Part shown: one piece after another, positions 8,658 through 48,586 of the stretch
How positions within the stretch are numbered: position 1 is the stretch's first letter
How the letters are laid out: the number at the start of each line of letters is the position of its first letter
NCBI GenBank assembly: GCA_029249225.1
Contig: JAQWHT010000092.1
Location: forward strand, 1 to 58,451
Origin: Flavobacteriaceae bacterium
GTDB taxonomy: Bacteria > Bacteroidota > Bacteroidia > Flavobacteriales > Flavobacteriaceae
Direction of reading: 5' to 3'
Length of the DNA: 58,451 bases
Notes under the pieces: model-generated
The model's database searches: none
What the model saw: the letters and a program-made list of their open reading frames with translations, nothing else
What the model was told of the DNA's origin: nothing
Made by a program: the position numbers and the translations under genes

Positions 8658-8790
8658 GACTCTTTTTTTGTTTAAATATAGGTAAAAAAGTTTAAACATT
8701 AATTGTTAAGGTTAAAAATTTACAGAAAGTTTAATTTATTTTTGAATCCTACATACAAAAAATAATTCTACCCATTAATATGTTCTCTAA

Positions 8791-8817: not shown

Positions 8818-8926
8818 GATGGAGTAAAGCACAGGAACTGAACTAAGAGTACTACTTTATATTCCTAATTTTTGGAATAAAGCATCCTAAAAAGACTGAA
8901 TACTAACAAACTACTAGTACTAGAAG

Positions 8927-9040
8927 CTAATCCTCATTGTCGCTTATTTCCATGTAATTATTACCAGATGCGAAGTAGACAAGAGCATATCCTAAACAAC
9001 TAGAAATAATAATAAAATGATGAATTTCAGAAACATTCAT
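8927..9040 (-). CDS. 37-residue putative single-span membrane peptide
   Basis: The ORF runs from ATG 9040 to TAG 8927. The translation has a polar start (MNVSEIHH), one hydrophobic helix (FIIISSCLGYALVYFA) and an acidic tail (EISDNED), a regular layout for a small inner-membrane protein. There is no homology evidence and no clear promoter, so it is a candidate only. Confidence 0.3.
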   Translation of the reverse strand: MNVSEIHHFIIISSCLGYALVYFASGNNYMEISDNED

Positions 9041-9212
9041 TCAAAGTTGTTCCAAGATATAAGTTATCGTAGCACAATCTTGATGTAAGTTAAACAGCCA
9101 TAATTCACAAAATAAATTGATTTTCTGAGTTGTTCAGTCTCCTGGGTAAGGTGTGTAAACGCCTTATTAAGTTTTATAATTTATACATTTACATTTTACT
9201 ATTTTCAACCCT

Positions 9213-9533
9213 ATGATGACTCCGTTTATAGCAGTTTTGATCACAGATTTCATTTTATTAATTATCGCTTTTGGGATGACAAAAGAAAATTCAAAATACC
9301 TGCTAAGTGGGTATAATACAATGTCAGAAAAAGAAAGAAAAAAATTTGATATTGAAAATTATCTAAGTTTTTTAAAAAGATTTTTAGTAATTCTTACATC
9401 AACATCCACTGTAATTTTTGTCATTTTAGTTTATTTTTTTGATGAAAAGATCGCAGTAATGAGTTATGCTTCGTATTTAATGATCATGCTCATTTGGTTT
9501 GTATTTAAAGGAACTAAATTTAAATTGAATTAA
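9213..9533 (+). CDS. DUF3784-like membrane protein
   Basis: The 106-residue protein has three predicted membrane helices (about 4-22, 57-75 and 82-101). Between the first two it carries LLSGYNTMSEKER, the conserved cytoplasmic segment of DUF3784 proteins, followed by a KKFDIENY stretch. The function of this family is unknown. TATACATTTACA upstream could be its -7 region. It is monocistronic and followed by another tiny membrane-peptide ORF. Confidence 0.75.
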   Translation: MMTPFIAVLITDFILLIIAFGMTKENSKYLLSGYNTMSEKERKKFDIENYLSFLKRFLVILTSTSTVIFVILVYFFDEKIAVMSYASYLMIMLIWFVFKGTKFKLN

Positions 9534-9594
9534 AGTTTAGTTTTTTTTTATGAAGGGGTTTACATCTTTTCTCAGAATTAGTATATTTAAGACT

Positions 9595-9681
9595 ATGAAA
9601 ACAAAAATTTCGGCTATCGGATGGCTTTTTATAATTATGTATGGGTTTATAATGCTTTGCACCTACCTCTACATGATGTAA
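9595..9681 (+). CDS. 28-residue single-span membrane peptide
   Basis: The ORF has ATG 9595 and TAA 9679-9681. The sequence has a basic start (MKTK), one hydrophobic helix (IGWLFIIMYGFIMLC) and ends YLYMM. Codon use and the positive-inside charge fit a real small membrane protein. It lies 61 bases after the DUF3784 gene and might share its transcript. Too short for standard gene finders; unverified. Confidence 0.35.
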   Translation: MKTKISAIGWLFIIMYGFIMLCTYLYMM

Positions 9682-9838
9682 TCTCAAATGTCTATTTAAA
9701 CTCTGTTCTTCAGTGTTTTTGAACCTGAAATAATCAGAGATAAAGACAAATCATAGTATCCTAAATTGGATCTCTCACCTAGGTCCCCACTTCCCTCTTG
9801 AAAAATATGCAGGACGAAACTTAATGTTTAAAACCTAA

Positions 9839-10357
9839 TTAAATTACTGTGCAGCGACTGTAAGTAATGAGTTGGTCATCAAAATCTAATAGGGTAAATT
9901 CTTGGACTTGTCCCTCTGGTATTGGTAAGGTTTGGTTTTCTTCAAATAATTCTCCGAATAAAAACCTTTGATCACTTACTCCAAAACAAGAACACCAGGA
10001 AATATCTCCAAAATGCAAAATGGTTTCGCCCTCATAAACTCCCCAGCTAAATACTTGGTAAACTGAAGTACCAAAATCTAAGGTTCCTACTCCGTTTGGT
10101 AAAATTTGAATTTCAGATTCGAACATTGAATCAGACGAAACCCAACATCCAACATAAGGACTATCAAAACTAACTTTAGGATTAGCTAAATGAAATTCCA
10201 AAATAGCCAGTTGAGCTTCATAGGCATCTAGCTGATCTACTACTGCATTGAACTTTTCAAGAAGTTCTTGATTTGCTGCTTCAAGATCATTAACCTGATT
10301 TTCTAAATCCTTAGTGCAACCAAAAATTATCAGTAAGAAAAAAAAATATTTAATCAT
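9839..10357 (-). CDS. Lipoprotein with N-terminal coiled coil
   Basis: The 172-residue protein has a lipobox IIFGC (Cys14) and is therefore probably membrane anchored. Residues 16-60 are heptad-rich (KDLENQVNDLEAANQELLEK and onward) and should form a coiled coil like the one in Lpp-type or flavobacterial spacer lipoproteins. The C-terminal part (about 65-172) is beta-rich and ends in a small domain with Cys in GCW, WCSCFG and SRCTV. I do not recognise this domain; a lipocalin-like or calycin-type barrel is possible. Divergent from the ADP-ribosylglycohydrolase gene. Confidence 0.65.
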   Translation of the reverse strand: MIKYFFFLLIIFGCTKDLENQVNDLEAANQELLEKFNAVVDQLDAYEAQLAILEFHLANPKVSFDSPYVGCWVSSDSMFESEIQILPNGVGTLDFGTSVYQVFSWGVYEGETILHFGDISWCSCFGVSDQRFLFGELFEENQTLPIPEGQVQEFTLLDFDDQLITYSRCTVI

Positions 10358-10558
10358 GCTCGAGTGAGATCAGCCTCAAAATATACGTTGGAATCAAATT
10401 TAATAATAAGTTTTAACAATTCAATCAGATTTTGGTAAGGGATAAATAAGTTAATCCAGCCCGTTTATAGATACTCTTCATACACTTTAGAATATTTGAA
10501 CTAAATCACTCTAAATCAAATCAAAAATTTATACATTTAGAAATATTATTTTCTACCA

Positions 10559-16159: not shown

Positions 16160-16252
16160 GGTTTAACCTCAACTGTCCTCTCTTCAACTCTGTTTAGATC
16201 AACTTCTAAAATCACTAAAAATATTTAACTTTATTTAATTCAAGTTTAGATA

Positions 16253-17089
16253 ATGAAATTGTACTTAACCGATAAAGGAATCTTTCTTTTATCTAATGAC
16301 CAGGTTTATCATTTACCTGATAAAGACTTTGACCATCTGATAAATCGAGATGATCTTCTTGCTTATTTAAATAAGTGCTGTTCAGACTACAAATCGATTG
16401 ATCTTAGTGAGAAAGAATTGGCCAACACTGCTTTAGCTCCCATTCAAAATCAGGAAGTCTGGGCTGCGGGTGTGACCTATTATAAGAGTAAGAAAGCGCG
16501 AATGGACGAATCCAAAAATAGTGGTGGAAGCACATTTTACGATAAAATCTACGATGCTAAACGTCCTGAACTTTTTTTTAAAAGTACTGCATCTAGAGTG
16601 CGTGGACCAAACAACTTACTTCGAGTAAGAAAAGACAGCAATTGGACTGTCCCTGAACCTGAATTAGCACTTTTAGTTACAGCCAAACAAAAGATAATTG
16701 GTTACTCCATAGGAAATGATATGAGTGCAAGAGATATAGAGGGAGAAAACCCACTCTATCTTCCTCAAGCAAAGTCGTATGAAGGCTCAACAGCCCTAGG
16801 ACCTTGTTTGCTTATTTTAGATCGACCCCTAAATGCCAACACTAGAATTGAATTACAAATTAGGCGCAAGGGAATACTGGCTTTTAGTGGTGAAACTTCA
16901 ATTAAAGAAATCAAACGCTCTTTTGAAGAGCTGGCCTCATATTTATTTCTTGAGTTGGATTTTCCTAAGGGCTGCTATTTAATGACCGGAACTGGTATTG
17001 TACCCGATGATTCTTTTTCAATTCTTTCAGAAGATGAAATTTACATCACAATAGAAGGAATTGGTACTTTAAAAAATTCTGTTGCTTAA
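16253..17089 (+). CDS. Fumarylacetoacetate hydrolase family protein
   Basis: The 278-residue protein has no signal peptide. The FAH fold is indicated by PEPELALL (about 134), which carries two metal-binding Glu, and GNDMSARDIEG (about 154-164), followed by KSYEGSTALGP. The C-terminal TGTGIVPDD loop is also typical. Members cleave or isomerise C-C bonds of beta-keto acids, for example 2-keto-3-deoxy or acylpyruvate compounds. Because the next genes downstream are sugar-type oxidoreductases on the other strand, a role in sugar-acid breakdown is possible, but this is inference. Confidence 0.88.
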   Translation: MKLYLTDKGIFLLSNDQVYHLPDKDFDHLINRDDLLAYLNKCCSDYKSIDLSEKELANTALAPIQNQEVWAAGVTYYKSKKARMDESKNSGGSTFYDKIYDAKRPELFFKSTASRVRGPNNLLRVRKDSNWTVPEPELALLVTAKQKIIGYSIGNDMSARDIEGENPLYLPQAKSYEGSTALGPCLLILDRPLNANTRIELQIRRKGILAFSGETSIKEIKRSFEELASYLFLELDFPKGCYLMTGTGIVPDDSFSILSEDEIYITIEGIGTLKNSVA

Positions 17090-17099
17090 TTTACGATCT

Positions 17100-17693
17100 C
17101 TAGAATGTCCAACGCTTTCCAATTTCTGAAAGCGGTAAACAACCTATATATTCTCCAGGTATTGGATCATATGCTAAAATCTCCTTTCCGATTTTTTCTG
17201 AGCTACAATAGGCCCATATGGCCATCGATTTTGTTTGTCTGTAAAACCCCACGTCTTGTTGCCTATTTACAGCAGTACCCCATACACTTCCATTAAATTT
17301 TGGGGAAGAAGCTTCTGCTCTTTCCAAAACCTTATTCTGTTCAAGAGTACTCAACATTACAAATGAAGCTCCAAAATTTGCTTTACATTCGCTGTCGAAA
17401 CTTGCAATCTGTGCTCTTAACTGATTTTTCTCCTCTTCAGTTAGTGCCTTTGAATAAAACAGATCCATAAAACGATCTGCATTGACATCTAATGCCCCTG
17501 GAGTATCTGTCCTTGGTAAAATTACGTCAACTAGAGTTGAAACCAAGAGCGCTTCTGGTTCACTAAAAAAAAGTGGCTCCCAAGAAATACCAACCTCTGA
17601 TTGACAAGACTCAAAAAGGGATAATAAACCAGGTATTGCAAATGCCCCCCCTGTCAAAATTCCAGCTTGCTGTAATGCTTTTCTTCGATTCAT
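17100..17693 (-). CDS. Gluconate 2-dehydrogenase subunit 3-like protein (Tat signal)
   Basis: The start is the ATG at 17693, which gives MNRRKALQQAG, a twin-arginine signal, and leaves one base between the TGA of the GMC gene and this ATG; a longer frame beginning at 17729 would overlap that gene and add an unlikely leader. A lipobox-like FESC follows the hydrophobic stretch. The mature part is the subunit 3 helical domain, with the LVDVILPRTDTPGA stretch and an HP-like absence of heme motifs. It should be the small partner that exports and stabilises the flavoprotein by hitchhiking through Tat. Confidence 0.85.
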   Translation of the reverse strand: MNRRKALQQAGILTGGAFAIPGLLSLFESCQSEVGISWEPLFFSEPEALLVSTLVDVILPRTDTPGALDVNADRFMDLFYSKALTEEEKNQLRAQIASFDSECKANFGASFVMLSTLEQNKVLERAEASSPKFNGSVWGTAVNRQQDVGFYRQTKSMAIWAYCSSEKIGKEILAYDPIPGEYIGCLPLSEIGKRWTF

Positions 17694-17694
17694 A

Positions 17695-19401
17695 TCAAAT
17701 ATTTTGTTTATTAAGTTCAGAAACAGCATGATTGGCTGCTCTGGCTGTGATTGCCATATAGGTTAGTGAAGGATTGACGCATGAAGATGAGGTCATACAT
17801 GCACCATCCGAAACAAAAACATTTTTTGCAGCATGAACTTGATTGAATTTATTTAAAACTGAAGTTTTAGGGTCATGACCCATACGGGCGGTTCCCATTT
17901 CATGGATTCCGTTTCCTTGTTCGTGTTCATTATCAAAACCAACTATGTTGGATAAACCCGCTTTTTCAAGCATCTCTACAGCATCTTTTTGAATTTGTCT
18001 ATTGGCCATTTTTTCATTTTCCTTAAATTCACTGTCTATAGTTAATGTTGGGGTCCCCCATTTATCAAGCACATCTTTATTAAGGCTTACTTTGTTTTCA
18101 TGATAAGGTAAACATTCTGCAAATCCGGTTATGAAAAATTCCCATGGTTCAGGTTGCATCAATGCTCTCTTAAAGTCTGCTCCAAAACTAGGAAGATTGG
18201 CTGCAGCTTTTAAATCTGATCGGCCTCCTCCTCCTTGGAATCCAAAACCTCTTAAAAAGTCTTTAGATTGCTTTTGCCCTTGAAGATTTACATAACGAGG
18301 GATGTAAATCCCATTAGGACGTCTCCCTTTATAATACTCATTTTCAAATCCATCAACATTTCCCATTGCACCAACCCTGTAGGTATGATCCATCAGGTTA
18401 TGACCCAACTCCCCACTGTCATTTCCAAATCCGTTTTCAAATCTTGAAGACGTGGAGTTTAATAAAATTTGTGTGGTACTTAAAGTCGATGCATTAGAAA
18501 AAATAATTTTTGAATAAAATGAATAGGATTGGTTAGTCTCTGCATCAACAATTCGCACTCCAACTGCTTTTTCTTTTTTTTCATCATAAATTATGGATTC
18601 TACTATTGAATAAGGCCTAATTGTAAGGTTTCCTGTAGCGTTTGCAGCAGGAAGTGTAACCGAATTACTACTAAAATAGGCCCCATAAGGACACCCTCTA
18701 CTACAACGGTTTCGGTACTGGCATTGACCCCTACCGTTTAGAGGTTGCGTCAAATGCGCCACCCGCCCAACAATCATGTGTCGCCCAGGAAATTCTTTTT
18801 CAATTCTGCTTTTTACATGCTTTTCTACACAATTCAACTCCATTGGAGGAAGAAAATGACTATCTGGTAGCTGAGGCAATCCAAGTGCTTCACCGCTAAT
18901 CCCTGCAAATTTTTCTACATATGTATACCAAGGGGCTAAATCATTATAACGTATGGGCCAGTCAACTCCATATCCGTCTTTAGCATTTGCTTCAAAATCA
19001 AGATCACTCCAACGATAGGTTTGTTTTCCCCATACTAAAGAACGACCACCCATTTGGTGGGCTCTAATCCAGAGAAAAGGCTTTTTCTCTGTATATGGAT
19101 TCTCTTCATCGTTTGCGAAAAAATGCTCCGTATCTTTTCCAATAAATCCAGAACGGACCACATACTTATGTTTTTGTTTTTCCTTCGATGTAAGTGCTCC
19201 TCTTAATTCTAAATCCCAAGGATCGTTGTTCATTGTTGGATAATCTTTGACATGCTCAACCATTCTTCCTCGTTCTAAAACAAGTGTTTTTAAACCTTTT
19301 TCACATAGCTCTTTAGCAGCCCAGCCACCACTAATCCCAGAGCCAATTACTATGGCATCATAAGTCATGTCTTTTTTGGCGTCAATATTGTAATTTGGCA
19401 T
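17695..19401 (-). CDS. GMC family FAD-dependent oxidoreductase (large subunit)
   Basis: The 568-residue protein has the FAD dinucleotide motif GSGISGGWAAKELCEKG about residues 17-33, a Cys-rich region (CQYRNRCSRGCPYG), and the GMC C-terminal region with HEMGTARMG and NPSLTYMAITARAA. It lacks its own signal peptide. With the Tat subunit encoded directly behind it, it resembles gluconate or glucoside-3-dehydrogenase type complexes that oxidise sugars in the periplasm. No cytochrome c subunit is seen in the window, so the electron acceptor is unknown. The tRNA-Arg gene lies about 70 bases before the start, on the opposite strand. Confidence 0.9.
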   Translation of the reverse strand: MPNYNIDAKKDMTYDAIVIGSGISGGWAAKELCEKGLKTLVLERGRMVEHVKDYPTMNNDPWDLELRGALTSKEKQKHKYVVRSGFIGKDTEHFFANDEENPYTEKKPFLWIRAHQMGGRSLVWGKQTYRWSDLDFEANAKDGYGVDWPIRYNDLAPWYTYVEKFAGISGEALGLPQLPDSHFLPPMELNCVEKHVKSRIEKEFPGRHMIVGRVAHLTQPLNGRGQCQYRNRCSRGCPYGAYFSSNSVTLPAANATGNLTIRPYSIVESIIYDEKKEKAVGVRIVDAETNQSYSFYSKIIFSNASTLSTTQILLNSTSSRFENGFGNDSGELGHNLMDHTYRVGAMGNVDGFENEYYKGRRPNGIYIPRYVNLQGQKQSKDFLRGFGFQGGGGRSDLKAAANLPSFGADFKRALMQPEPWEFFITGFAECLPYHENKVSLNKDVLDKWGTPTLTIDSEFKENEKMANRQIQKDAVEMLEKAGLSNIVGFDNEHEQGNGIHEMGTARMGHDPKTSVLNKFNQVHAAKNVFVSDGACMTSSSCVNPSLTYMAITARAANHAVSELNKQNI

Positions 19402-19472
19402 CGTAATAATTTAAGTCAGTATCCTAAGGTAATTAATAGTTGGTATATTCAAATAAATTAAATAATTATTTT

Positions 19473-19544
19473 TGCCCCGTAGTTCAACGGATAGAACAAA
19501 AGTTTCCTAAACTTTAGATAGAGGTTCGATTCCTCTCGGGGCAA
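19473..19544 (+). tRNA. tRNA-Arg (anticodon CCU)
   Basis: A full cloverleaf folds over 72 bases. The acceptor stem is TGCCCCG/CGGGGCA, the D stem is GTTC/GAAC, the anticodon stem AAAGT/ACTTT carries the loop TTCCTAA (anticodon CCT in DNA), the variable loop is four bases, and the T arm is AGAGG/CCTCT around TTCGATT. The 3' CCA is not encoded. It reads AGG codons. The gene is alone, divergent from the GMC oxidoreductase. Confidence 0.95.
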
Positions 19545-19866
19545 CTTTTAAAATAAAATTTGCTTACACTCCTATGGCTGCGCCCTTTAATTGAAAAGAA
19601 GACTCTCTAAATTTCTACTCGGATCTTCCCATTCGAAAACTCATAAAACTCTCAAGTTATAAGTCGTAACCAGGAGCCTAAAGGAGAAAAGTGAAAATAG
19701 CTCCCTGAATTGAGACTTGCGCCTCTAAAGTTTTTGGATGATTGTCGTAGAATGTTCATTCTCTATTTTAATTTAAATATTTATAGAATTCTGTTGGGAT
19801 AATTTACAATGGTATTCTTAACAAAATGAAATTTTAGGTAAATTGGTTATTCTTAATGTTATAAAA
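19545..19866. other. Spacer downstream of the tRNA
   Basis: About 320 bases lie between the tRNA gene and the Gfo/Idh/MocA gene. A slightly more GC-rich patch with GCTGCGCCC and CCAGGAGCC near 19570-19720 does not match any RNA family I know. I find no direct copy of the tRNA 3' end that would suggest an integration site. Confidence 0.45.
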
Positions 19867-20982
19867 ATGATCACACGAAGAAAGTTCATTCAAAAAGCCG
19901 GTCTTGGTGCAGCAAGCTTACCTCTGATTTCCAGTACACATCCGCTATTTACTCCTACTGTGATACCCCCTGATATTCCTTTGCTTAGGGTAGCTATCAT
20001 GGGGCTTGGCAGCTATGCCAATCGGGTTGCTAGAGCAATGGAAACCTGTTCTCGTGCAAAAATTACCGGGCTGGTCAGCGGTACTCCATCTAAAATAAAA
20101 GATTGGCAAAAACGCTATGGAATCCCAGAAAAAAATTGTTATCACTACAACAACCTTGAGGAAATAGAATCAAATCCAGATATTGACGCAGTTTACATTA
20201 TCACTCCCAATGGCTTGCATTGTGAACATACGCTTAAAGTTGCAGGGGCAGGCAAACATGTAATCTGTGAAAAACCAATGGCTATCAATGCTCTTGAAGG
20301 AAAACAAATGGTCGACGCCTGCGAAGCTGCTGGTGTTCAACTATTGATTGGTTACCGAATGCATTTTGAACCAAAAACCTTAGAAGCCATCAACCTTCGT
20401 CAATCAGGAATTCTAGGAAAAATAATGTTTTTTCAGGGACTTTCAGGTTTTAAAATTGGCAATCCCAATCAATGGAGATTAAACCTCAACCTTTCGGGTG
20501 GTGGAGCTATGATGGATATTGGCATCTATTCTGTGAATGGTGCGAGATATATGGTAGGTGAGGATCCTATTTGGGTAAGTGCACAACAAACAAAAACCAA
20601 CCCAAGTAAATTTAAAGATGGGATAGACGAAACAATCCAATTTCAAATGGGATTCCCGAGTGGTGCAGTTGCTTCTTGTCTCTCTACTTACAACATGAAT
20701 TACCTGGATCGATTTTTTTTAAACGGAAGTAAAGGATTTATTGAAATGCAACCCTCAACTGGATACGGTCCAATTCAGGGAAAATCGCATTTAGGCCCTT
20801 TGAGTGGTCCTGTTGTGAATCATCAAACTGTTCAGATGGATGCCATGGCAGGAATACTTCTTTATAAAGAACAAGCACCCGTCGCAGTTGATGGTAAAGA
20901 AGGATTAAAGGACATGAAAATTATTGATGCAATTTACCAGGCGTGTAGATCTGGTAACAAAATATATTTACCCAAATTATAA
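19867..20982 (+). CDS. Gfo/Idh/MocA family oxidoreductase (Tat-exported)
   Basis: The start is the ATG at 19867; an in-frame upstream codon at 19843 would place a leader before the Tat motif. The first residues are MITRRKFIQKAGLGAASLPL, a classical twin-arginine signal. The Rossmann motif GLGSYANR and the conserved CEKPMAIN and GGGAMMDIGIYSVNGARY (about 215-230) show a Gfo/Idh/MocA sugar dehydrogenase or dehydratase-like protein using NAD(P). Family members act on cyclic sugars and sugar glycosides. The cofactor must be loaded before Tat export. It heads a two-gene unit with YjbQ 19 bases behind. Confidence 0.88.
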   Translation: MITRRKFIQKAGLGAASLPLISSTHPLFTPTVIPPDIPLLRVAIMGLGSYANRVARAMETCSRAKITGLVSGTPSKIKDWQKRYGIPEKNCYHYNNLEEIESNPDIDAVYIITPNGLHCEHTLKVAGAGKHVICEKPMAINALEGKQMVDACEAAGVQLLIGYRMHFEPKTLEAINLRQSGILGKIMFFQGLSGFKIGNPNQWRLNLNLSGGGAMMDIGIYSVNGARYMVGEDPIWVSAQQTKTNPSKFKDGIDETIQFQMGFPSGAVASCLSTYNMNYLDRFFLNGSKGFIEMQPSTGYGPIQGKSHLGPLSGPVVNHQTVQMDAMAGILLYKEQAPVAVDGKEGLKDMKIIDAIYQACRSGNKIYLPKL

Positions 20983-21001
20983 TACTTCTAAAGACTAAAA
21001 T

Positions 21002-21409
21002 ATGGTATTTCAAAAACGACTTCAACTTCCCTCTCACTCAAGAGGTTTTCATCTTATTACTTCGCATATTTTGAACGAGCTCCCTGAACTTTCTGGGGTT
21101 GTTCACGTTTTTATTCAGCATACCTCGGCAAGTTTAAGTATTAATGAAAATGCAGATCCAACGGTAAGGATGGACTTTGAAACTTTTTTTAACCATCTAG
21201 TTCCTGAAGACAGTAACCTGTTCTTACACACTGACGAAGGTCCAGATGACATGACCTCGCATATTAAAAGTAGTTTATTAGGAAGCAGTGTTAGTTTTCC
21301 TATAAAGAAGGGAATTCCGCAATGGGGAATGTGGCAGGGCATCTATTTGTGTGAACACAGGAATACCGAAAGAAAGAGAGATATAGTAATTACTGCGATT
21401 GGAGAATGA
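21002..21409 (+). CDS. YjbQ-like secondary thiamine-phosphate synthase family protein
   Basis: The 135-residue cytoplasmic protein shows family features: a start with FQKRLQLPSHSRGFHLIT, then VFIQHTSASLSINENADP, then DDMTSHIKSSLLGSS, and the C-terminal WQGIYLCEHR. This is the UPF0047/YjbQ fold. Family members have a weak thiamine-phosphate synthase activity, and the true role is unclear. Stop-to-start spacing of 19 bases indicates cotranscription with the Tat-exported Gfo/Idh/MocA protein, although one acts in the cytoplasm and the other in the periplasm. Confidence 0.85.
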   Translation: MVFQKRLQLPSHSRGFHLITSHILNELPELSGVVHVFIQHTSASLSINENADPTVRMDFETFFNHLVPEDSNLFLHTDEGPDDMTSHIKSSLLGSSVSFPIKKGIPQWGMWQGIYLCEHRNTERKRDIVITAIGE

Positions 21410-21442
21410 AGATAAAACTTTAGATTTTTTTAAACCTAACGG

Positions 21443-23023: not shown

Positions 23024-25222
23024 TTAGAGAAGTTTACTTAACAAGGAGAGAAAGTTCGTGTAATTTCTAGTATAAAACTCTGCCGCCGTTTTTTTCTTCC
23101 CAATTTTTACTTTAAAAGTATCTGAAGGAAGGTTTGTAAACATATTTTCATCTGTTACATCATCTCCGGCTGCAAGAATAAAATCATAAGGTTTTAAATT
23201 ATAAAGGTCCAGTGCAACTACTCCTTTATTGATGTTTGCTGGAACCAGTTCTAAAACTTTATTGCCGTCTAATAAGGTTAATTCATTTGGCAAAAGACTT
23301 GTAAGCACAGTTTTTAATTCTACTGATCTTGCAGTTCCTAATTCAGGATCTGTTTTGCGGTAATGCCACACTAAGGAGTTCTTTTTGTGTTCTATAAAAG
23401 TTCCAGGAGTATTATCTGTAAATGTGTCAAGTACAGGAAGCAAATGTTCTTTCCATTCATTACTGACTCCTTTTTTCTCTTCCCATTCGGCATTCGGTTT
23501 TTTTAGGAATAATCCGTGCTCAGCGACCAAGGTTAAATTTAACTGAGCAAAGTGCTGCTCCAAAAATTCATGTGGCCGTCCACTAATAATAACAAGATCC
23601 GTATTCTTTTGATTGCTCAAATCAGTTAATAAATTTAAGAGTGATTCCGAAGGAATTGCTTTATTTGGATTTTCATGAAACCCAACTAAAGTTCCATCAT
23701 AATCCAATAACAGCAGACGTTTATTTGCTGAATTATAGGCCTCTGCGATCATGTTTGAAACCTGAGCATTTACAACTTTAACTTCAGAGGCAGATTCTTT
23801 ATTTGCCGAATCACTTAAGGCCTTCATAAAATTTGAAGACCACTTTTCGATGTCGTATCGTTGAATCCTTTTACGTGAAATAATATTGCGTTCTTTCTGC
23901 TCTTTCACAGACATTTCTAGGGCGGTCTTGATGGATTGAACCAGTTGCCCAATATCAAAAGGATTTACTAACAATGCTTGAGGTAATTCTTTTGAAGACC
24001 CCGCCAGTTCACTTAAAATAAGAACACCATCATTATCCACTCGTGTTGCTAGATATTCTTTAGCCACTAGATTCATCCCATCTCTTAGTGGGGTTATCAT
24101 TGCTACATCAGATGAAACATAAAGATCAATCAAATTTTCAAACTCCATTGAACGGTAATAGTACCATACAGGAGTCCAGTTTACAGAAGCAAACTTTCCA
24201 TTGATTCTTCCCACTACCTCGTCTGTTTGGCGCTTTAACTGTTTGTATTGAGAAACTTTAGATCTTGAGGGAACTGCTAACATTACAAGACGAATTCTGT
24301 CATGATATTCTGGATAGGTGTCTAAAAATCGCTCAAAAGCCAATAATCTATTCACCACACCTTTGGTGTAGTCCAAACGGTCGATTGATAAAATTAACTT
24401 CCCCTCGTTTTCAGACTTGTGAGCATTGATTTGCTTTTTTAGTTCAGAAGTTTCTGAAAAATTATTTCTTAAGTTTTCTAAAGCAGCTGATTCAAATTTT
24501 TTGAAATCAATTCCCATTGGAAAAGTATTAACTACTATTTCACGCCCGTGATGTAATATAATATTATAGTTTACTTCAAAGTTTAAGATCCTTTTCACAG
24601 AACTCAAAAAATGACGTTCATAATCATAGGTATGAAATCCTATAAGGTCTGAACCCAATAGCCCTAACAATAATCGTTCTCGTTCAGGGAAAATTCTAAA
24701 TATTTCAAAGGAAGGAAAGGGAATATGAAGAAAAAATCCTATCGTAACTTCTGGGTTAGTATCTTTAATCATTTGAGGACATAGCAATAATTGATAATCA
24801 TGGACCCAAACGATATCACCATCTTCAATTACCTCTAATACTGCATTGGCAAATTTTTGATTTACTTGAATGTAGTGATTCCATTGTTCAATATCAAAAT
24901 AGTGGTACTCAATAAAGTAATGGAATAACGGCCACAAACACTTATTTGAAAAACCAAAATAAAAGTTATCTAACTCATTTTCATCCAAAAATACTGGTCT
25001 ATACTGATACTTTTCTAAGTCCTTAGAAATTTGAGTTTTACTTTTCTCATCCAACACATCAGAACTAACACCAGGCCACCCCACCCACAGGGAGTCTCCA
25101 TCTTGATGAACAGATTTCATCCCAGTAGCCAAGCCTCCACTAGTAGGCGTAAACGACCAAGAATCATTGGCGTTTATAGCTTGAACAGGTAAGCGATTGG
25201 ATACAATAATATTTTTAGGCAT
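23024..25222 (-). CDS. Bifunctional trehalose-6-phosphate synthase / trehalose-phosphatase
   Basis: The 732-residue protein fuses two enzymes. Residues 1-475 are GT20 trehalose-6-phosphate synthase with the glycine loop GGLATGMKSV, WVHDYQLLL, DRLDYTKGV and DGMNLVAKEY; this part uses UDP-glucose and glucose-6-phosphate. Residues about 500-732 are the HAD-type phosphatase with the nucleophile motif LLDYDGTL (near 505), ISGRPHEFLE and GDDVTDENMF. The fusion produces trehalose in the cytoplasm, as an osmoprotectant or carbon store. It is divergent from a GH16 gene, with a GH15 gene nearby that might degrade the product. Confidence 0.95.
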   Translation of the reverse strand: MPKNIIVSNRLPVQAINANDSWSFTPTSGGLATGMKSVHQDGDSLWVGWPGVSSDVLDEKSKTQISKDLEKYQYRPVFLDENELDNFYFGFSNKCLWPLFHYFIEYHYFDIEQWNHYIQVNQKFANAVLEVIEDGDIVWVHDYQLLLCPQMIKDTNPEVTIGFFLHIPFPSFEIFRIFPERERLLLGLLGSDLIGFHTYDYERHFLSSVKRILNFEVNYNIILHHGREIVVNTFPMGIDFKKFESAALENLRNNFSETSELKKQINAHKSENEGKLILSIDRLDYTKGVVNRLLAFERFLDTYPEYHDRIRLVMLAVPSRSKVSQYKQLKRQTDEVVGRINGKFASVNWTPVWYYYRSMEFENLIDLYVSSDVAMITPLRDGMNLVAKEYLATRVDNDGVLILSELAGSSKELPQALLVNPFDIGQLVQSIKTALEMSVKEQKERNIISRKRIQRYDIEKWSSNFMKALSDSANKESASEVKVVNAQVSNMIAEAYNSANKRLLLLDYDGTLVGFHENPNKAIPSESLLNLLTDLSNQKNTDLVIISGRPHEFLEQHFAQLNLTLVAEHGLFLKKPNAEWEEKKGVSNEWKEHLLPVLDTFTDNTPGTFIEHKKNSLVWHYRKTDPELGTARSVELKTVLTSLLPNELTLLDGNKVLELVPANINKGVVALDLYNLKPYDFILAAGDDVTDENMFTNLPSDTFKVKIGKKKTAAEFYTRNYTNFLSLLSKLL

Positions 25223-25406: not shown

Positions 25407-26306
25407 TTGTTGTTTGGAATTTTGTTTTCCTGCAGTAAAAATTCAAATGATAGTTCAATGAGTGATTTCACTCCTGAAGAAAGTGTTAATACCATTGTGA
25501 CGCCTAATATTAACATCGATACATCTGAAGAGGTAACGATCTACAATGACTATGATTTAGTATGGAATGATGAATTCAATTATGAAGGGAGTCCTGCAAG
25601 CGATAAGTGGCATCATCAAATAATTCCTATTCTTGGAACCGGTTGGGCGAACAACGAACAGCAACATTACACTGAAAGATTAGACAATTCCTATGTTAGT
25701 GATGGAACTCTTAAAATTGTTTGCAAAAGAGAAACTTATACCTATGAGGGGATTTCAAAAATTTTCACTTCAGCACGATTAAATTCTAAATTTGATATCC
25801 AGTATGGAAGAATTGATGTTCGGGCCAAACTTCCCAATTCTAAGGGTACTTGGCCAGCTATATGGACCTTAGGAACATCTATAGGAGAGCAAGGAAATTA
25901 TCATGGAACCACAGCAGGTAATGTGGGATGGCCTGAGTGTGGTGAAATCGATATCATGGAGCAAGATGGAGAAGAGAAAGAAAAAATATATGGCACTTTT
26001 CACTGGGCTGACCTCAATTCAGGCAATCAGGCTTCTTATGGTGAAACAAAAAATATTTCTGAATTAAATATCTCAGATGTAACCACTAATTTCTATGTTT
26101 ACTCTTTAGTTTGGACTTCGCAATCACTAATAGTATTTGTTGACAATAAGTTAGTAGCTCAACTAATAAATAACTTTAATGTCCCTTTTGACAATCCCCA
26201 TTATTTACTCCTGAATATTGCTATGGGTGGAACTTTAGGAGGTTCAATCCCTGAATCTTTTTCTGAAGATATTATGGAAGTTGATTATGTAAGATTTTAC
26301 AAATAA
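25407..26306 (+). CDS. GH16 beta-glucanase (laminarinase-like), start codon uncertain
   Basis: The stated start is a TTG, the first recognised start codon. It leaves only nine residues before the lipobox FSC, too short for a good signal. The frame is open from 25356, and translation from an ATA at 25374 would give KHIKFLLIHCLLFGILFSC, a proper lipoprotein signal, so the original start was probably an ATG mutated to ATA. The catalytic core is clear: EIDIMEQ with the two Glu, preceded by WPAIWTL, and a C-terminal MEVDYVRFYK. It should hydrolyse beta-1,3-glucans. It is paralogous to the GH16 at 37471. Confidence 0.88.
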   Translation: MLFGILFSCSKNSNDSSMSDFTPEESVNTIVTPNINIDTSEEVTIYNDYDLVWNDEFNYEGSPASDKWHHQIIPILGTGWANNEQQHYTERLDNSYVSDGTLKIVCKRETYTYEGISKIFTSARLNSKFDIQYGRIDVRAKLPNSKGTWPAIWTLGTSIGEQGNYHGTTAGNVGWPECGEIDIMEQDGEEKEKIYGTFHWADLNSGNQASYGETKNISELNISDVTTNFYVYSLVWTSQSLIVFVDNKLVAQLINNFNVPFDNPHYLLLNIAMGGTLGGSIPESFSEDIMEVDYVRFYK

Positions 26307-26539
26307 ATCTATACAGAGAGTATAATCTAAAAAGTAAAATTTATCTGAATGACAGCTGTTAATGCAACTTTTTAAAAGTTTAGGGCTTTAAAATGTGAAA
26401 TCCTAAACCCAGAAGTCATTTAAAATAAAATTTTGTTTTTCATTAATATTGATAATTTCCTAAATACAGTATTAGCATATTTTTTAACATCTTTGAACCT
26501 CTGATTTAACAAATGTATATAACAGAATAAAACTTTCAC

Positions 26540-28321
26540 ATGAATACATTGAAAAACATGAATTTTGGAATAATTGGAAATTGCAGATCTGCTGCTTTAA
26601 TTGACGAAACTGGCTCTATCGATTGGTGTTGCCTACCAAAATTTGACTCTCCTTCCATTTTTGCAAAAATTCTTGATGTCGAAAAAGGAGGAAGCTTTAA
26701 TATTACCCCAGTAGGGAATTTTGTTATTTCACAATCTTATCTGTGAGATTCTTGTATCCTCAGTACCATTTTTGAAAATAAAAAGGAATCTTTCGAAATC
26801 ATTGATTTCATGCCTCGATTTCAGACTGAAAAAGGACAATATTATGCACCCCCAGAGCTAGTTAGACTTGTGAAACCAATCAAGGGAAATCCTAAAATTA
26901 AGATTCAGTATAATCCTCGTTTAGAATATGCCCAGGGAGTAACATCTCATGAGGCAAAAAACAATTCTATTGTGAGTGAGGTAAATGAACCTACTCACGA
27001 TAGTTTGTTTCTTTACACTAATACAGAAAAGAACTCTGTTTTAAACAAAACCGACGTAGCACTTGATCAAACCCTTTTCTTTACCATTTCTTACAATGAA
27101 AAATTAAATATTCCCACCCTTTCTAGTTGCCTTTTAGATTTTGAGAGAACAAAAGTTTATTGGTTGAATTGGTGTTCAAAGACTCCTACATTTGATCACT
27201 ACAACGATCTGATTCAGCGTAGCGCCATGACCTTAAAACTTATGTCCTATGATAAAACAGGTGCCGTTTTAGCAGCAGTGACGACTTCGTTGCCAGAAAC
27301 TATTGGAGAAGTTCGAAATTGGGATTATCGTTTTTGCTGGATTCGAGATGCCTCCATGGTAATTAGAGTAATTTCTAAGTTAGGACACAAGCGTATCGTA
27401 AAAAACTTTATTAATTACATTGTCGAACTTATTCCAGACAAGGATCAGAAACTGCAAATCATGTATGGAATTAACGGTGAGACTGTTTTAACAGAACAAA
27501 TCCTAGAACACTTTTCTGGTTATGAAAATTCAAAACCTGTACGAATTGGTAATGCGGCCTACTCACAAAAACAAAATGACATCTATGGTATTTTGATGGA
27601 TGCGATTCATGCAGAGATGAAAGAATTCCCTTCTGATTTTGAACGATCTGAAGAAATTTGGTCTATCGTCAAAGGGATTGTTTGGGTCGTCAAAAATAAT
27701 TGGCAAAAAGCAGATAAAGGTATCTGGGAGTTCCGTTCTGAAGATCAACATTTTACCTTCTCTAAAGTCTTGTGCTGGGTGGCCATTGATCGGGCAATCA
27801 AAATAGCCAAATTGGTTGGAAAAGATAAAGTAGCACTTAAATGGACTCCATTAAAAGAGGCTATTAAAGACGATATTGAGGATCATGCATGGAATGAGGA
27901 GATTCAAGCTTACACTCAATCCTACGGCTCCAAATACCTAGACGCTTCTGTACTTCTTATTGAGCAGTATGGATTTGTTTCTGCAGGCGAAGAGCGTTTT
28001 AAGAAAACCGTTAAAGCAATTGAAAAAGAACTTGCCTTTAATGGCTTATTATACCGTTATAAAAATCAAGATGACTTTGGTTTACCTTCATCTTCATTTA
28101 CCGTATGCACCTTTTGGTTTATCAATAGCCTTATAAAAATTGGAGAAGTTGAGAAAGCAAAAAAATACTTCGAAGATCTCATGAGCTACAGTAATCATCT
28201 TGGACTTTTTAGTGAAGATATCGATTTTGATTCTAAGCGCTTATTAGGAAATTTTCCTCAAGCGTATTCACACCTTGCGCTTATTGACACTGTACTTTCT
28301 TTCAATTCTGTTAAAGTATAA
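26540..28321 (+). pseudogene. GH15 family glycoside hydrolase interrupted by an in-frame TGA
   Basis: The whole frame is 593 residues, the usual length of this family, with a single TGA at 26744-26746. Before it is the N-terminal MNFGIIGNCRSAALI domain (26540-26746); after it the frame resumes in phase (DSCILSTIF, then DFMPRF at 26810) and contains the catalytic domain signature RNWDYRFCWIRDASM and a KGIWEFR acid region. A one-base change from TGG, CGA, AGA or GGA would restore it. The family includes glucoamylase- and trehalase-like enzymes, fitting the nearby trehalose synthase. TGA is used as a normal stop elsewhere, so recoding is unlikely; a sequencing error or a true null is the choice. 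Confidence 0.85.
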
Positions 28322-28430
28322 TCGTTTAGCTTTAGTAGTGTCCTGATCAATAATTAGATACTCAAAGTATCTTGTTTTTCAAATATTGAATTTACAATTA
28401 GATTTTGTATCTTGTTTTAAACTAAATCAG

Positions 28431-29678
28431 ATGAAAACCACAACAGTACTATCGCTTATTTGCTTTCTTTTAATCTCTTGTTCGCCTACTACAAGTGACC
28501 CCAATATTAAAGAGGGAATGTCACTTGAACGACTTTCAAGAATTGACTCCATGCTCAACAAGGCTGTAGAAGAACAAGAAATCCCTGGTGCTGTCGCATT
28601 GATTGTACGAAACGGAGAGACTGTATATCAAAAATCTTTTGGGATAGCAAACCCGGAAAATAACCGCTCTTTTAGTGAAAATGATATTTTTAGAATTGCC
28701 TCTATGACCAAAGCCATTACTTCTTTGGCTGTTCTTATGCTCTGGGAAGAAGGTAAATTTTTCTTAGACGATCCTATTTCAAAATACATCCCTGCATTTG
28801 CTGAAACAGGAATTTTAGATGAATTCAATCCTAAAGACTCAACATATACTTATAAACTCCCAAAAAATAAAATGACTATACGACATCTGCTAACTCATAC
28901 TTCAGGTATTGGCTATGGTGAAATAGATGGCAATCCTGCTATTCGTTCTGTTTATTTAAAAAGAGGACTTCAAGATATTTTTGCTCCAGATCAAACTATG
29001 GGAGAAATTGCCAATATCATCGCAGCACAGCCTTTACATCACGAACCTGGTGAACGCTTTACGTACAGTTTGGGACTTGATGTTTTAGGACATTTGGTAG
29101 AGCTGATGTCTGGGATGAGCTTCCCTGAGTTTTTGAGCACTAGAGTTTTTGAACCACTGGATATGAAAGACACCTATTTTACTCTACCAAAAGAAAAACA
29201 CGAAAGATTGGTTCCTGTATTGACTAGAAATGGTGAGGAATGGGCGGTCTATAATGCTTCATTCTACGATGTCAATTACCCACTCCAATCAAAAAATTAT
29301 TTTTCAGGTGGTGCTGGGCTTTCAAGTACAGTACAAGATTACGCCAAATTTCTGACCTTATTTTTAAATGATGGTAAAGCAAACGGGCATCAAATCATCG
29401 GGAAAAAGACATGTGAGTTAGTTTATGAGAATCAAATGTCTGAAGACGCGTCTATTTCTCACGGACTAGCATTTGGCGTTTTACCAGAAAAAGATCTTAA
29501 AAAAGGAGCTGGTGGAAGTGAAGGTACGCTAACATGGGGAGGCTATTTTAACACTAGTTACTTTGCTGATCCAGAAGAAAATATCATCGGAATAATCTAC
29601 AAACAAACTTTTAATATAGGATATGACACTACCTCTGGAAGATTTAGAGAACTTGTTTTTCAAGCAGTAGTGGAGTAG
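28431..29678 (+). CDS. Exported serine hydrolase, beta-lactamase/S12 family lipoprotein
   Basis: The start is ATG 28431 (MKTTTVLSLICFLLISC), which gives a lipobox at Cys17; the frame is open to 28386 but that would not change the signal. The active-site motif SMTK lies near residue 91, and the second motif is YSLG (near 212), where YxN is usual. The C-terminal part has GGYFNTSYFADP. The absence of an Asn in the second motif and of KTG suggests an esterase or D-aminopeptidase rather than a beta-lactamase. The mature protein is anchored to a membrane. Confidence 0.85.
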   Translation: MKTTTVLSLICFLLISCSPTTSDPNIKEGMSLERLSRIDSMLNKAVEEQEIPGAVALIVRNGETVYQKSFGIANPENNRSFSENDIFRIASMTKAITSLAVLMLWEEGKFFLDDPISKYIPAFAETGILDEFNPKDSTYTYKLPKNKMTIRHLLTHTSGIGYGEIDGNPAIRSVYLKRGLQDIFAPDQTMGEIANIIAAQPLHHEPGERFTYSLGLDVLGHLVELMSGMSFPEFLSTRVFEPLDMKDTYFTLPKEKHERLVPVLTRNGEEWAVYNASFYDVNYPLQSKNYFSGGAGLSSTVQDYAKFLTLFLNDGKANGHQIIGKKTCELVYENQMSEDASISHGLAFGVLPEKDLKKGAGGSEGTLTWGGYFNTSYFADPEENIIGIIYKQTFNIGYDTTSGRFRELVFQAVVE

Positions 29679-37470: not shown

Positions 37471-38268
37471 ATGAAAACTATTTTAAATGTGATCTTGATC
37501 GGTCTTTTTCTTTCATGTTCCCCAAAAAAAGAAATAAAACAAGATTATACACTAGTTTGGAGTGATGAATTTGATCAAGAATCTAGTGAAGTTGATACTA
37601 GTAAATGGTTTCTGGAAACTGTAGCACCCAATAATGGCAGCTGGTACAATAACGAGCTTCAGCATTATACCGATCGTTTGGACAATGCATCAGTTGATAA
37701 TGGTACACTAAAAATTACTGCTATAAAAGAAGAGTACACCCATTCAGGGACAACTCAAGCCTATACCTCTGCTCGTTTAAATTCCAAATTTTCTTTTACC
37801 TATGGAAAAGTAGTTGTTCGAGCAAAATTACCTCGAGCTGAAGGAACTTGGCCTGCCATTTGGATGTTAGGCAGTAATCTTGAAACCGTAGGTTGGCCTG
37901 GATGTGGAGAAATTGATATTATGGAGCAACTCTTTGAAAATCATGAAATGGTTCAGTGTGCTGTTCATACACCTGCTACTCACGGGGATAACACAATTGT
38001 AAAACAAGTTGATGTTTCAGATGTGACCACCAATTTTCATGATTACGGACTGATCTGGACAGAAGAAAAAATTGATTTTACAGTAGATGATCAGATCTAT
38101 TTCACTTACAATCCCAAAGAAAAAACACCAGAAAATTGGCCTTATTTCAACGATCAATATCTATTACTCAATATTGCGATGGGTGGAAATCTTGGAGGCA
38201 AAATTGATCCTAATTTTGATCGAGATGTTATGGAAGTTGACTATGTCAGGGTTTACAAATACCAGTAG
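37471..38268 (+). CDS. GH16 beta-glucanase lipoprotein
   Basis: The 265-residue protein has a lipobox LSCS (Cys about 16). The catalytic core shows WSDEFD, WPAIWML, and GEIDIMEQ with the two Glu, then a C-terminal NIAMGGNLGG and MEVDYVRVYK. This is a laminarinase-type endo-beta-1,3-glucanase. It is a close paralogue in design to the GH16 at 25407 but has a normal ATG. No SusC/SusD pair is adjacent, so this is not a classical polysaccharide utilisation locus. It converges with the D-aminoacylase gene with a five-base gap. Confidence 0.93.
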   Translation: MKTILNVILIGLFLSCSPKKEIKQDYTLVWSDEFDQESSEVDTSKWFLETVAPNNGSWYNNELQHYTDRLDNASVDNGTLKITAIKEEYTHSGTTQAYTSARLNSKFSFTYGKVVVRAKLPRAEGTWPAIWMLGSNLETVGWPGCGEIDIMEQLFENHEMVQCAVHTPATHGDNTIVKQVDVSDVTTNFHDYGLIWTEEKIDFTVDDQIYFTYNPKEKTPENWPYFNDQYLLLNIAMGGNLGGKIDPNFDRDVMEVDYVRVYKYQ

Positions 38269-44867: not shown

Positions 44868-44904
44868 TCTTTTATTAAACACAAAAAGCCAGCTAATTTT
44901 TCTT

Positions 44905-45516
44905 ATGCGAGATTTTTGGAACCATCGCTATTCTGGAGAACAGTATGCCTACGGGAAAAACCCAAACAACTATTTTAAAAAAGTCCTTAAAAGTCTAAAA
45001 CCAGGAAAAATCTTATTGCCTGCAGAAGGCGAGGGCAGAAATGCTGTATTCGCTGCTGCATTAGGTTGGGAAGTGTTTGCTTATGATTTTAGTGAAGTGG
45101 CTCACGCAAAAGCTATGGCACTCGCTTCTGAAAAAAAAGTAAGTCTCAACTATCAGATTGCTTCCTTGAGTGAAATAGAATTTCCAAATTATTTTTTTGA
45201 CGCAATAGGATTAATTTATGTTCATTTCCCAGATCACATTCGGCGGTCAAACCATCGACACTTAGAGAAACTATTGGCCCCTGGCGGTGACTTGATCTTG
45301 GAAGCTTTTAGTAAAAATCATATTGAATATCAGCAAAAAAATCCAAGTGTTGGAGGACCCAAAATACAGTCACAACTCTATCGAGCAAGTGATTTAGAAG
45401 CTGATTTTAAGTCTTCTAAAATGATGTTATTACAAGAGAGAGCTATAACCCTTTCGGAAGGAGATTTTCATGTGGGAGAGGCTTCTGTAATTCGGATGCA
45501 TGGAGTGAAAAATTGA
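44905..45516 (+). CDS. Class I SAM-dependent methyltransferase (TehB/thiopurine-type)
   Basis: The 203-residue protein has DFWNHRYSGEQYAYG at its start and the SAM-binding loop PAEGEGRNAVFAAALGWEV (about 39-57), with an acidic residue in FAYDFS. The post-I region (YQIASLSEIEF) and FPDHIRRSNHRHL are typical of TehB-like or thiopurine-type methyltransferases that detoxify small toxic compounds. The substrate is unknown. It is likely cotranscribed with the HxlR regulator. Confidence 0.85.
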   Translation: MRDFWNHRYSGEQYAYGKNPNNYFKKVLKSLKPGKILLPAEGEGRNAVFAAALGWEVFAYDFSEVAHAKAMALASEKKVSLNYQIASLSEIEFPNYFFDAIGLIYVHFPDHIRRSNHRHLEKLLAPGGDLILEAFSKNHIEYQQKNPSVGGPKIQSQLYRASDLEADFKSSKMMLLQERAITLSEGDFHVGEASVIRMHGVKN

Positions 45517-45608
45517 CTCAGTAGGAAATATTTGACAAGATTTTCCTACATAATAAATTGACAATTTTATTCTATTATTTTTTTTGTTTTAATTTAGTAA
45601 AAAAACAA

Positions 45609-48581
45609 ATGAAAAGAATTTTATTTTTTCTACTCTTTCCGATATACTTATTGAACGGTCAGGACTACTTCCCCGACAACACTGCGGTGAAAACAAAAGA
45701 GTTAAATTATCAAGCGTTTACGAACGCTACTATCCATATAAATCCAACTACAGTTATTGAAAATGCCACGCTTCTTGTCCAAGGAGGAAGGATAGTTGCA
45801 GTTGGACAAAACATTAATATACCCAAAAACACAAGGTTGTTTGATAAAACAGGGACTCATATTTATCCCTCATTTATAGAACTCAACAGTAATTTCGGGA
45901 TCAAATTAGAAAAAACTTCCAGATCAGGTAGAAGTGCTCAATACCAAGCCAGTCGGGATGGATATTATTGGAATGATCATATATTGAGTGATTACAACAG
46001 CATAGAAGACTACACATACGACAAAAATCAAGCTAAAAATTTAAGAAACGTGGGGTTTGGAATTGTGAATACGCATCGCGCTAACGGAATTCATCGAGGA
46101 ACCAGTGTATTGTTGGCCTTGAGTGATATGCTTCCCAATAGAGATCGGTACCTCGAATCAGAAGCAGCAGAACATTTTTCTTTCAAAAAAAGCACTACTT
46201 CTAACCAAGCTTATCCAAGCTCTGTGATGGGCTCAATGGCACTGATTCGACAATTTTATCATGATACTAAATGGTATGAAGCAGGAAATGCACCCCATAC
46301 TGACTTAGCAATAGAAGCGGCTATAAAAAACAAAAAACTTCCTAAAATATTTGAGGCTTCTGATAAATTCAATACTCTAAGAGCAGTAAAAGTGGGAAAC
46401 GAAGTGGGGCTTGATTTTGCCGTAGTAGGAAGTGGTCAAGAATATGAATTAATTGATCAGCTAAAATCCAATAACGCCAAACTTATACTCCCCATAAATT
46501 TTCCTAAGGCCTATGACACCACTGACCCTTTAATGATGAAAAAGATTACCTTGACCCAACTTCGTCATTGGAATCAGGCGCCTATGAATCCAGCAGCTGT
46601 AGCCAATGCGGGAATACCATTCGCATTGACAACACATAAAATGAAATCTACTAAAGAATTCATGCCTAATTTGAAAAAAGCAATTGCCTATGGTCTCAGC
46701 GAACAGAAGGCTTTGGAAGCTTTGACCACTGTTCCTGCTCAACTTCTAAATCAGCAAAAAAATCTAGGGACTTTAGCAAAAGGAAAACTTGCTAATTTCA
46801 TTGTGACTTCAGGTCCATTATTTAATACCAACACCAAGCTATATGAAAACTGGGTAAAAGGAACTCCACATGTAATCTTAGAACATACAATCAATAATAT
46901 TGATGGCAAATACACTGTCCAACTTGGAGAAAAAACACTAGAGCTAGAAATTAAAAATAGCCAAGAAAAAATCAGTGTAACTGCCAAATTAGATTCTGTA
47001 AAGTTAAAAACAAAAAGTTCCTACAAAGATCATTGGTTGGCCATAAATATTATAGATTCCAAGAAAAAAAGCCATGCACTTCTAAATACCAAAATAGGTA
47101 ATTCTGGGTTGAAAACTGGTCAGGGGAATGATTTCTCTGGGAATCAGATCGAATGGACTTTATCAAAAATAGATTCTGATAAAGAAACAAAGGACCAAAA
47201 AGCACCTCAGTATTACGAACCCTTACCCCTGAAGTTTCCTAACAAAGCTTATGGATTTTCAGAACGCCCTCAATCAGAAACACTACTTTTTAAAAATGCT
47301 ACAGTTTGGACCAACGAAGAGGAAGGAATTCTAGAACAAACCGATGTGCTTATTATGAATGGAAAAATCACTGCTGTAGGGGCTGATCTGGAGGCTGATG
47401 GTGTTAGGGTTATTGATGCTTCTGGAAAACATTTAACCTCAGGCATCATTGATGAGCATTCACATCTCGGAGCTTCAAGCATCAACGAAGGTGGACACAA
47501 CTCCTCCGCTGAAGTGAGTATTGAGGATGTTTTGGAACCAGATGATATTGGACTCTACCGAGATTTGGCAGGAGGAGTTACAGCTATTCAAATTTTACAC
47601 GGTTCTGCCAACCCCATTGGAGGTCGCTCTGCTATTATTAAACTCAAGTGGGGAGAGACGGCTGATGAATTACTTATTGATGATGCTGATCCTTTTATCA
47701 AATTTGCACTTGGAGAAAATGTAAAACAATCTAACTGGGGGAGCTATTCCCGTTTTCCTCAAACTCGAATGGGGGTTGAACAAGTTTTTGTTGACCATTT
47801 CCAACGCGCAAAGGAGTATGGGAAAACTTGGGAACGCTACAATGCACTGCCAAAAAAAATAAAAGCAAAAACTAAAGTTCCTCGATATGATATTGAAATG
47901 GAAGTACTCTTAGAAATTTTAGAGGGAAAGCGTTTTATTTCGAGTCATTCATATGTACAGTCTGAAATCAACATGTTAATGAAAGTTGCCGAAAAATTTG
48001 ACTTCAAAATAAACACTTTTACCCATATACTTGAGGGGTACAAGGTCGCTGATAAGATGGCTGAACACGGAGTAGGAGGATCTACTTTTTCAGACTGGTG
48101 GGCGTATAAAAATGAAGTGAAAGACGCCATTCCCTACAACGGAGCGATTATGCACAATGCCGGAGTTACTGTAGCCTTTAATTCTGATGATGCTGAAATG
48201 TCAAGACGTTTGAATCAAGAAGCTGCTAAAGCAGTTAAATATGGAGGTGTTTCTGAAGAAGATGCTTGGAAATTTGTTACTCTTAATCCTGCTAAACTCC
48301 TTCATTTAGACCACCGCATGGGAAGTATAAAAGTTGGTAAAGATGCTGATCTTGTCCTTTGGTCAGATCATCCACTATCAATTTATGCAAAAGCAGAAAA
48401 AACAATTATTGAGGGTACTATTTATTATGACTCAGAGACTGTTGAAAATCAATTAAAATCAATCGAAACAGAAAAGCAGCAAATCATTGGCCAGATGTTA
48501 ATTGCAAAAGCACTTGGTGCAGACACCCAAAAAGCCCCATCAGGAGCTAAAAGAGAATTTACTTGTGAAACTTTAGACTAA
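45609..48581 (+). CDS. Exported two-domain amidohydrolase (N-terminal domain degenerate)
   Basis: The start is the ATG at 45609 (MKRILFFLLFPIYLLNGQ), giving 990 residues; an upstream codon at 45558 would add a hydrophobic leader and is not needed. The N-terminal half has an amidohydrolase layout, but where HxH is expected it reads FIELNSNFG. The C-terminal half has DEHSHLG (His617 and His619), SHSYVQ (about 780), THILEG (about 806) and NSDDAE (about 858), with an intact metal site. It is secreted to the periplasm and followed by a second amidohydrolase-like gene after five bases. Confidence 0.9.
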   Translation: MKRILFFLLFPIYLLNGQDYFPDNTAVKTKELNYQAFTNATIHINPTTVIENATLLVQGGRIVAVGQNINIPKNTRLFDKTGTHIYPSFIELNSNFGIKLEKTSRSGRSAQYQASRDGYYWNDHILSDYNSIEDYTYDKNQAKNLRNVGFGIVNTHRANGIHRGTSVLLALSDMLPNRDRYLESEAAEHFSFKKSTTSNQAYPSSVMGSMALIRQFYHDTKWYEAGNAPHTDLAIEAAIKNKKLPKIFEASDKFNTLRAVKVGNEVGLDFAVVGSGQEYELIDQLKSNNAKLILPINFPKAYDTTDPLMMKKITLTQLRHWNQAPMNPAAVANAGIPFALTTHKMKSTKEFMPNLKKAIAYGLSEQKALEALTTVPAQLLNQQKNLGTLAKGKLANFIVTSGPLFNTNTKLYENWVKGTPHVILEHTINNIDGKYTVQLGEKTLELEIKNSQEKISVTAKLDSVKLKTKSSYKDHWLAINIIDSKKKSHALLNTKIGNSGLKTGQGNDFSGNQIEWTLSKIDSDKETKDQKAPQYYEPLPLKFPNKAYGFSERPQSETLLFKNATVWTNEEEGILEQTDVLIMNGKITAVGADLEADGVRVIDASGKHLTSGIIDEHSHLGASSINEGGHNSSAEVSIEDVLEPDDIGLYRDLAGGVTAIQILHGSANPIGGRSAIIKLKWGETADELLIDDADPFIKFALGENVKQSNWGSYSRFPQTRMGVEQVFVDHFQRAKEYGKTWERYNALPKKIKAKTKVPRYDIEMEVLLEILEGKRFISSHSYVQSEINMLMKVAEKFDFKINTFTHILEGYKVADKMAEHGVGGSTFSDWWAYKNEVKDAIPYNGAIMHNAGVTVAFNSDDAEMSRRLNQEAAKAVKYGGVSEEDAWKFVTLNPAKLLHLDHRMGSIKVGKDADLVLWSDHPLSIYAKAEKTIIEGTIYYDSETVENQLKSIETEKQQIIGQMLIAKALGADTQKAPSGAKREFTCETLD

Positions 48582-48586
48582 AGACT

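Follow-up and report, generated by a model that had tools for sequence, protein, structure and literature searches.

The DNA analysed here, called the window throughout, is a stretch of 58,451 nucleotides (contig JAQWHT010000092.1, positions 1 to 58,451, forward strand) from a draft genome of a Flavobacteriaceae bacterium (GCA_029249225.1; 2,086,816 bases in 133 contigs, 90% complete). Near its middle lies a GH15 gene whose reading frame is interrupted by a single TGA codon. The features of the locus are as follows.

23024-25222, minus strand: OtsAB, a fused trehalose-6-phosphate synthase/phosphatase gene, intact, the divergent partner of the GH15 gene
25407-26306, plus strand: GH16-like gene between OtsAB and the GH15 gene, absent from this place in the closest relatives
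26307-26539, plus strand: upstream region of the GH15 gene, by alignment with the nearest relatives
26540-28321, plus strand: GH15 (trehalase-like) reading frame of 593 codons and a terminal TAA, with one interruption
26540-26746, plus strand: 5' open frame of 68 codons and the TGA, holding part of the TREH_N domain
26744-26746, plus strand: the in-frame TGA, codon 69, within the predicted loop 68-73 that joins beta strands (from the frame, relatives and predicted structure)
26747-28321, plus strand: 3' open frame of 524 codons, with the remaining N-terminal domain and the whole GH15 barrel
26810-26812, plus strand: first ATG past the TGA, Met91, near-invariant in the family (from the frame and alignment)
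27728-27730, plus strand: codon of Glu397, the putative general acid, located between helices 5 and 6 of the barrel (from alignment and predicted structure)
28214-28216, plus strand: codon of Glu559, the putative general base, located between helices 11 and 12 of the barrel (from alignment and predicted structure)

The original prediction held that this frame stays in phase around the TGA and that family motifs lie on both sides of it, and both points were borne out. The frame 26540-28321 reads as 68 residues, the TGA at 26744-26746, 524 residues and TAA, with no second stop before the terminal one, and many stops are found on the reverse strand of the same segment. Pfam TREH_N is matched by the 68-residue part at 40.4 bits (cut-off 23.1), and Glyco_hydro_15 (PF00723) by the 524-residue part at 218.1 bits (cut-off 22), which places the gene in GH15; it is the only GH15 match in the 2.09 Mb of draft assembly searched. 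The TGA lies outside any homopolymer. Part of the region 26307-26539 still aligns with a conserved segment of the nearest relatives, which we read as promoter-like. Among the literature matches listed, titles and abstract openings hold nothing on this GH15 gene or its lesion.

Among NCBIfam families, both pieces match the trehalase TreH1 best, at 345.5 bits for the 3' part and 57.2 bits for the 5' part; scored separately, both fall under the 820-bit cut-off of the TreH equivalog. The window gene shares with the GH15 alpha,alpha-trehalases (TreH; NF041084/NF041085) the TREH_N and Glyco_hydro_15 domains and, by prediction, a beta domain joined to a helical barrel, with two invariant Glu residues in the expected loops. 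It differs from them in its TGA-broken frame, and the curated cut-off of the TreH1 models, whose names say archaeal, stands far above its score. The predicted structure (mean pLDDT 90.3) finds its best Foldseek match in the bacterial glucoamylase 1lf6 (E 6.8e-16, TM 0.69 by query length), although the two share only 14% identity, with an rmsd of 6.4; a profile of 57 sequences matched no PDB sequence at E 1e-5. A passage in PMC12446779 places the GH15 catalytic acid and base in the alpha5-alpha6 and alpha11-alpha12 loops. Both Glu397 and Glu559 show no variation among the 57 aligned sequences and, with barrel helices numbered by our own count from 222-234, fall in the 5/6 and 11/12 loops, a position that makes them the putative catalytic pair. 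Within the N-terminal domain, residue 69 is predicted to lie in the loop 68-73, which links strand 62-67 to strand 74-79.

The set of relatives examined comprised 107 loci. It drew on a GH15 search of 100 genomes (the window's own included), 28 of which had the gene, and on a scan of genome contigs that gave the best 80 of 590 loci. The two sets probably share at least one genome, since L011 and L029 lie on contigs of identical size (264,775 bases), so that the counts given are of loci and not of species. OtsAB is matched in 104 of the 107 loci (best 80 of 590 included), and in 95 of the 107 it is divergent from the GH15 gene and within 301 bases of it; the remaining nine have it on the same strand or on the other side. 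By genomes, OtsAB occurs in 26 of the 100 (own included), all of them among the 28 with GH15. The two GH15 genomes in which no OtsAB was found, G002 and G018, both have the GH15 gene at a contig edge, and in G037 OtsAB and GH15 point the same way rather than diverging. Because of this linkage, trehalase is the likeliest activity of the GH15 gene. The earlier assignment, a trehalose or glucan hydrolase, can therefore be narrowed to a likely trehalase. The genome also has a GH65 gene and a partial hit to the GH37 family, weak at 24 bits (L154).

Alignment with GH15 homologues had been proposed as a check on the TGA. Residue 69 is covered in 105 of the 107 loci (best 80 of 590 included), with L028 and L083 falling short, and all 105 have a sense codon there; none has a stop, and ten have TGG. 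Each of the 107 loci (same set, with the best 80 of 590) is also free of stops throughout its best aligned stretch. In tblastn the relatives align through the TGA in a single frame. The possibility that the two halves are separate genes in relatives, which would have spoken against a broken gene, is ruled out, being seen in none of the 105 covering loci (best 80 of 590 included). A TAG in the relative L012, considered as a second stop, proved to be that gene's own terminal stop. The codons of the closest four relatives (79.5-87% over the full frame) are GGT, GGT, GAT and GGA, and farther relatives have Lys, Glu, Pro, Arg, Gln, Asn and others; residue 69 thus varies freely. A scan of viral contigs found no relative.

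Apart from its disrupted reading frame, which is that of a pseudogene, the gene has neither the relaxed selection nor the additional lesions of one. No frameshift or further lesion was found in it. In 189 columns at least 95% of 104 relatives share a residue; the gene departs from them at four (residues 7, 9, 548 and 585), a slight excess over the two deviations in each of the three nearest relatives. At the 396 codons where five close relatives agree, which hold 875 nonsynonymous sites, the window has three private changes, all conservative; by the same count L002 also has three, and the other relatives have 8 to 32. From these three changes, neutral divergence of more than about 0.9% since loss is excluded (one-sided 95%). 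Fourfold sites differ from L002 at 61% and from L003 at 56%. Among six sequences, with the best of three trees, the omega of the window branch was 0.0305 against a background of 0.0228, which is not different (2dL 0.59) and is far from 1 (2dL 30.2); these omegas are rough, because synonymous change is near saturation. As there is no other decay, any loss must be recent, and the gene, if it is a pseudogene, is at most a very young one.

On balance we favour a recent and real nonsense mutation at residue 69 of a trehalase gene, a reading that we consider probable and well short of certain. To judge from family and linkage, OtsAB would make trehalose and the divergent GH15 gene would encode the trehalase that splits it. 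In the sequenced population this gene would have gained one very recent nonsense codon. Translation would stop at residue 69 and leave a 68-residue fragment that lacks the catalytic barrel, so that the GH15 gene is predicted to be off while OtsAB is still intact. On this reading the TGA would truly be present in the cells, with no useful product made from the gene. Young pseudogenes with a single nonsense codon are a known kind of gene in bacterial draft genomes. The likeness to them lies in a single disabling change within a gene that is conserved in other respects, and the window gene adds nothing special.

Several observations count against the recent-mutation reading. A draft assembly with a single base wrong at this site would look no different. 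Loss of GH15 alone would be unusual, given that, in the 100 genomes, all 26 with OtsAB carry GH15, and the four changed near-invariant columns, against two in each of the three nearest relatives, also speak against it, as do other faults or lesions in the assembly. Of the latter, one is a gene on another contig (L164; G000:C96, 12627-13672) that we take, from recall and a look at its sequence, to be of the potassium-channel/TrkA-N type. It was compared with 11 homologues, stops before the first Met in three of them (L178, L179 and L183) being left uncounted. The frame of L164 is broken twice, by a frameshift in a run of 9 A that stands just ahead of an internal ATG at the start of its second domain, and by a TAA at 13082. 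Its homologue in G012 (L177) is open over 349 codons. In the congener G022 (L178) the A run is likewise frameshifted and a TAA lies at a different place, while the homologue in the congener G003 (L179) has a TGA elsewhere. To judge by these sequences, the gene seems to have been lost, or mis-sequenced, repeatedly in the genus. Because L164 is broken here and other stops are found in two congeners, gene loss by nonsense may occur in the genus, a point in favour of the recent-mutation reading. The second is a GH65 segment that forms an inverted duplicate at a contig end (L173 / L155; G000:C98, near 5863-5955), with an apparent TGA beside it, and looks like a chimeric assembly edge. This TGA was considered as a parallel case and was rejected, as it adjoins the inverted duplicate at the contig end.

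The main alternative puts the TGA down to an error of sequencing or assembly, or to a consensus of mixed strains, with a living gene that is intact and encodes a normal trehalase. We regard this as a real possibility, and as less probable than a mutation. It gains from the lack of decay in the rest of the gene, from the co-occurrence of GH15 with OtsAB, from the break in L164, which lies partly at a homopolymer, and from the chimeric-looking contig end. In addition, OtsAB is split by a single frameshift in its phosphatase part in two of the 26 OtsAB genomes, G003 and G037. Taken with L164 and the GH65 contig end, these frameshifts indicate that single breaks are not rare in such drafts. Against an error stand the position of the TGA outside a homopolymer and the fact that no further gene has an in-frame stop where the window has a comparator. 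For the latter comparison, the window was set against 195 ORFs of the relatives' stretches, matches above 45% identity being listed. Stops appeared in 17 comparison rows, five of them for the GH15 gene, nine in antisense frames and three upstream of the window gene's open frame, so that no in-frame stop lies inside the open frame of another window gene in the parts with a comparator; about 1-10558, 16160-21442, 44868-49951 and 55854-58451 were left uncovered. Split genes were also sought in 277,632 bases, that is, the window and 219,181 bases of other contigs. A scan by codon usage listed 18 places and missed the GH15 site, thus failing its positive control. A second scan, with a different scoring model and the rule that no ATG occur in the first 12 codons past the stop, gave 14 places with the GH15 site among them; its threshold was set to pass that site, and L164 was the clearest of the others. 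Neither list gives a count of broken genes.

We think it unlikely that the gene still works through low-level readthrough of the TGA, with any inserted residue accepted in a tolerant loop. In its favour, the site is highly variable in relatives, with Trp (TGG) in ten of 105 loci (best 80 of 590 included), and lies in a predicted loop, and purifying selection is seen along the gene. Selection that preceded the mutation accounts equally well for the lack of decay, however. Further, since none of the 105 loci (again with the best 80 of 590) has a stop at residue 69, this is not a conserved readthrough site, and no suppressor tRNA is among the 27 tRNA places found. A more elaborate form of the idea, in which a leaky stop in a substitution-tolerant loop serves as dose control, so that the cell makes a trace of full-length trehalase and keeps the trehalose made by OtsAB, is in our view slightly less likely again. 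Nonsense, error and readthrough had all been offered as choices at the outset; the data fit the first two and are neutral on weak readthrough.

Translation might instead restart at the ATG at 26810 and yield a working enzyme of 503 residues, since an ORF runs from there and holds the full barrel. We find this very doubtful. That ATG is merely the family's near-invariant Met91, and a protein begun there would be missing residues 1-90, among them eight strands predicted for the N-terminal domain and such invariant residues as G13, N14, C31, P33, D46, G50, G51, Q65 and Y67.

Recoding had been called unlikely from the outset, and the genome agrees. An RF2 gene is present (479 bits, cut-off 370). 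The window has 30 ORFs with homologues in the relatives compared; TAA closes 18 of them, TAG eight and TGA four, and the relatives' homologues end no more than 15 codons from the same place. No place in the genome scored above the cut-off for tRNA-Sec, the best one being a tRNA-Ser by ARAGORN, and none of the 27 tRNA places found among the 150 of 199 candidates scored has a UCA anticodon. The absence of both is not absolute, given an assembly about 90% complete and the share of candidates scored, and the tRNA set is incomplete, as tRNA-Trp is missing from the 27 places. An Rfam scan of the window gave tRNA only. With RF2 present, TGA ending conserved ORFs, and neither tRNA-Sec nor a UCA anticodon found, selenoprotein synthesis or other TGA recoding is not supported. 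Programmed recoding, whether as selenocysteine or as a reassigned TGA, is thus scarcely credible, as nothing favours it beyond the TGA itself, Cys is found at residue 69 in none of the 105 relatives' loci (best 80 of 590 included), and the second broken gene of the genome, L164, has TAA and not TGA.

The finding is an ordinary one of little importance, most likely a very recent mutation or a draft-assembly error rather than a novel reading of the genetic code. Should the TGA prove real, the locus is a fresh case in which the trehalose maker is kept while its usual hydrolase is switched off, in contrast to the 26 of 26 OtsAB genomes, among 100, that carry GH15 too. Should it prove to be an error, it shows once more how a single-base fault in a draft genome can pass for a pseudogene.

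Three other window genes deserve brief mention. The gap between OtsAB and GH15 is 235-263 bases in the closest relatives and has no GH16-like gene. In the window, the frame of the GH16-like gene at 25407-26306 begins with TTG and a lipoprotein-like leader and has no N-terminal ATG, so that its start may be damaged or unusual. The beta-lactamase-family gene at 28386-29678 has a relative in G002 (L150, about 1064-2324) that is split between two frames. A second GH16-like gene lies at 37471-38268, recognized by a region of 41-47% similarity common to homologues of the 25407-26306 gene, and it has homologues of its own in G012 and G002 (78-81%).
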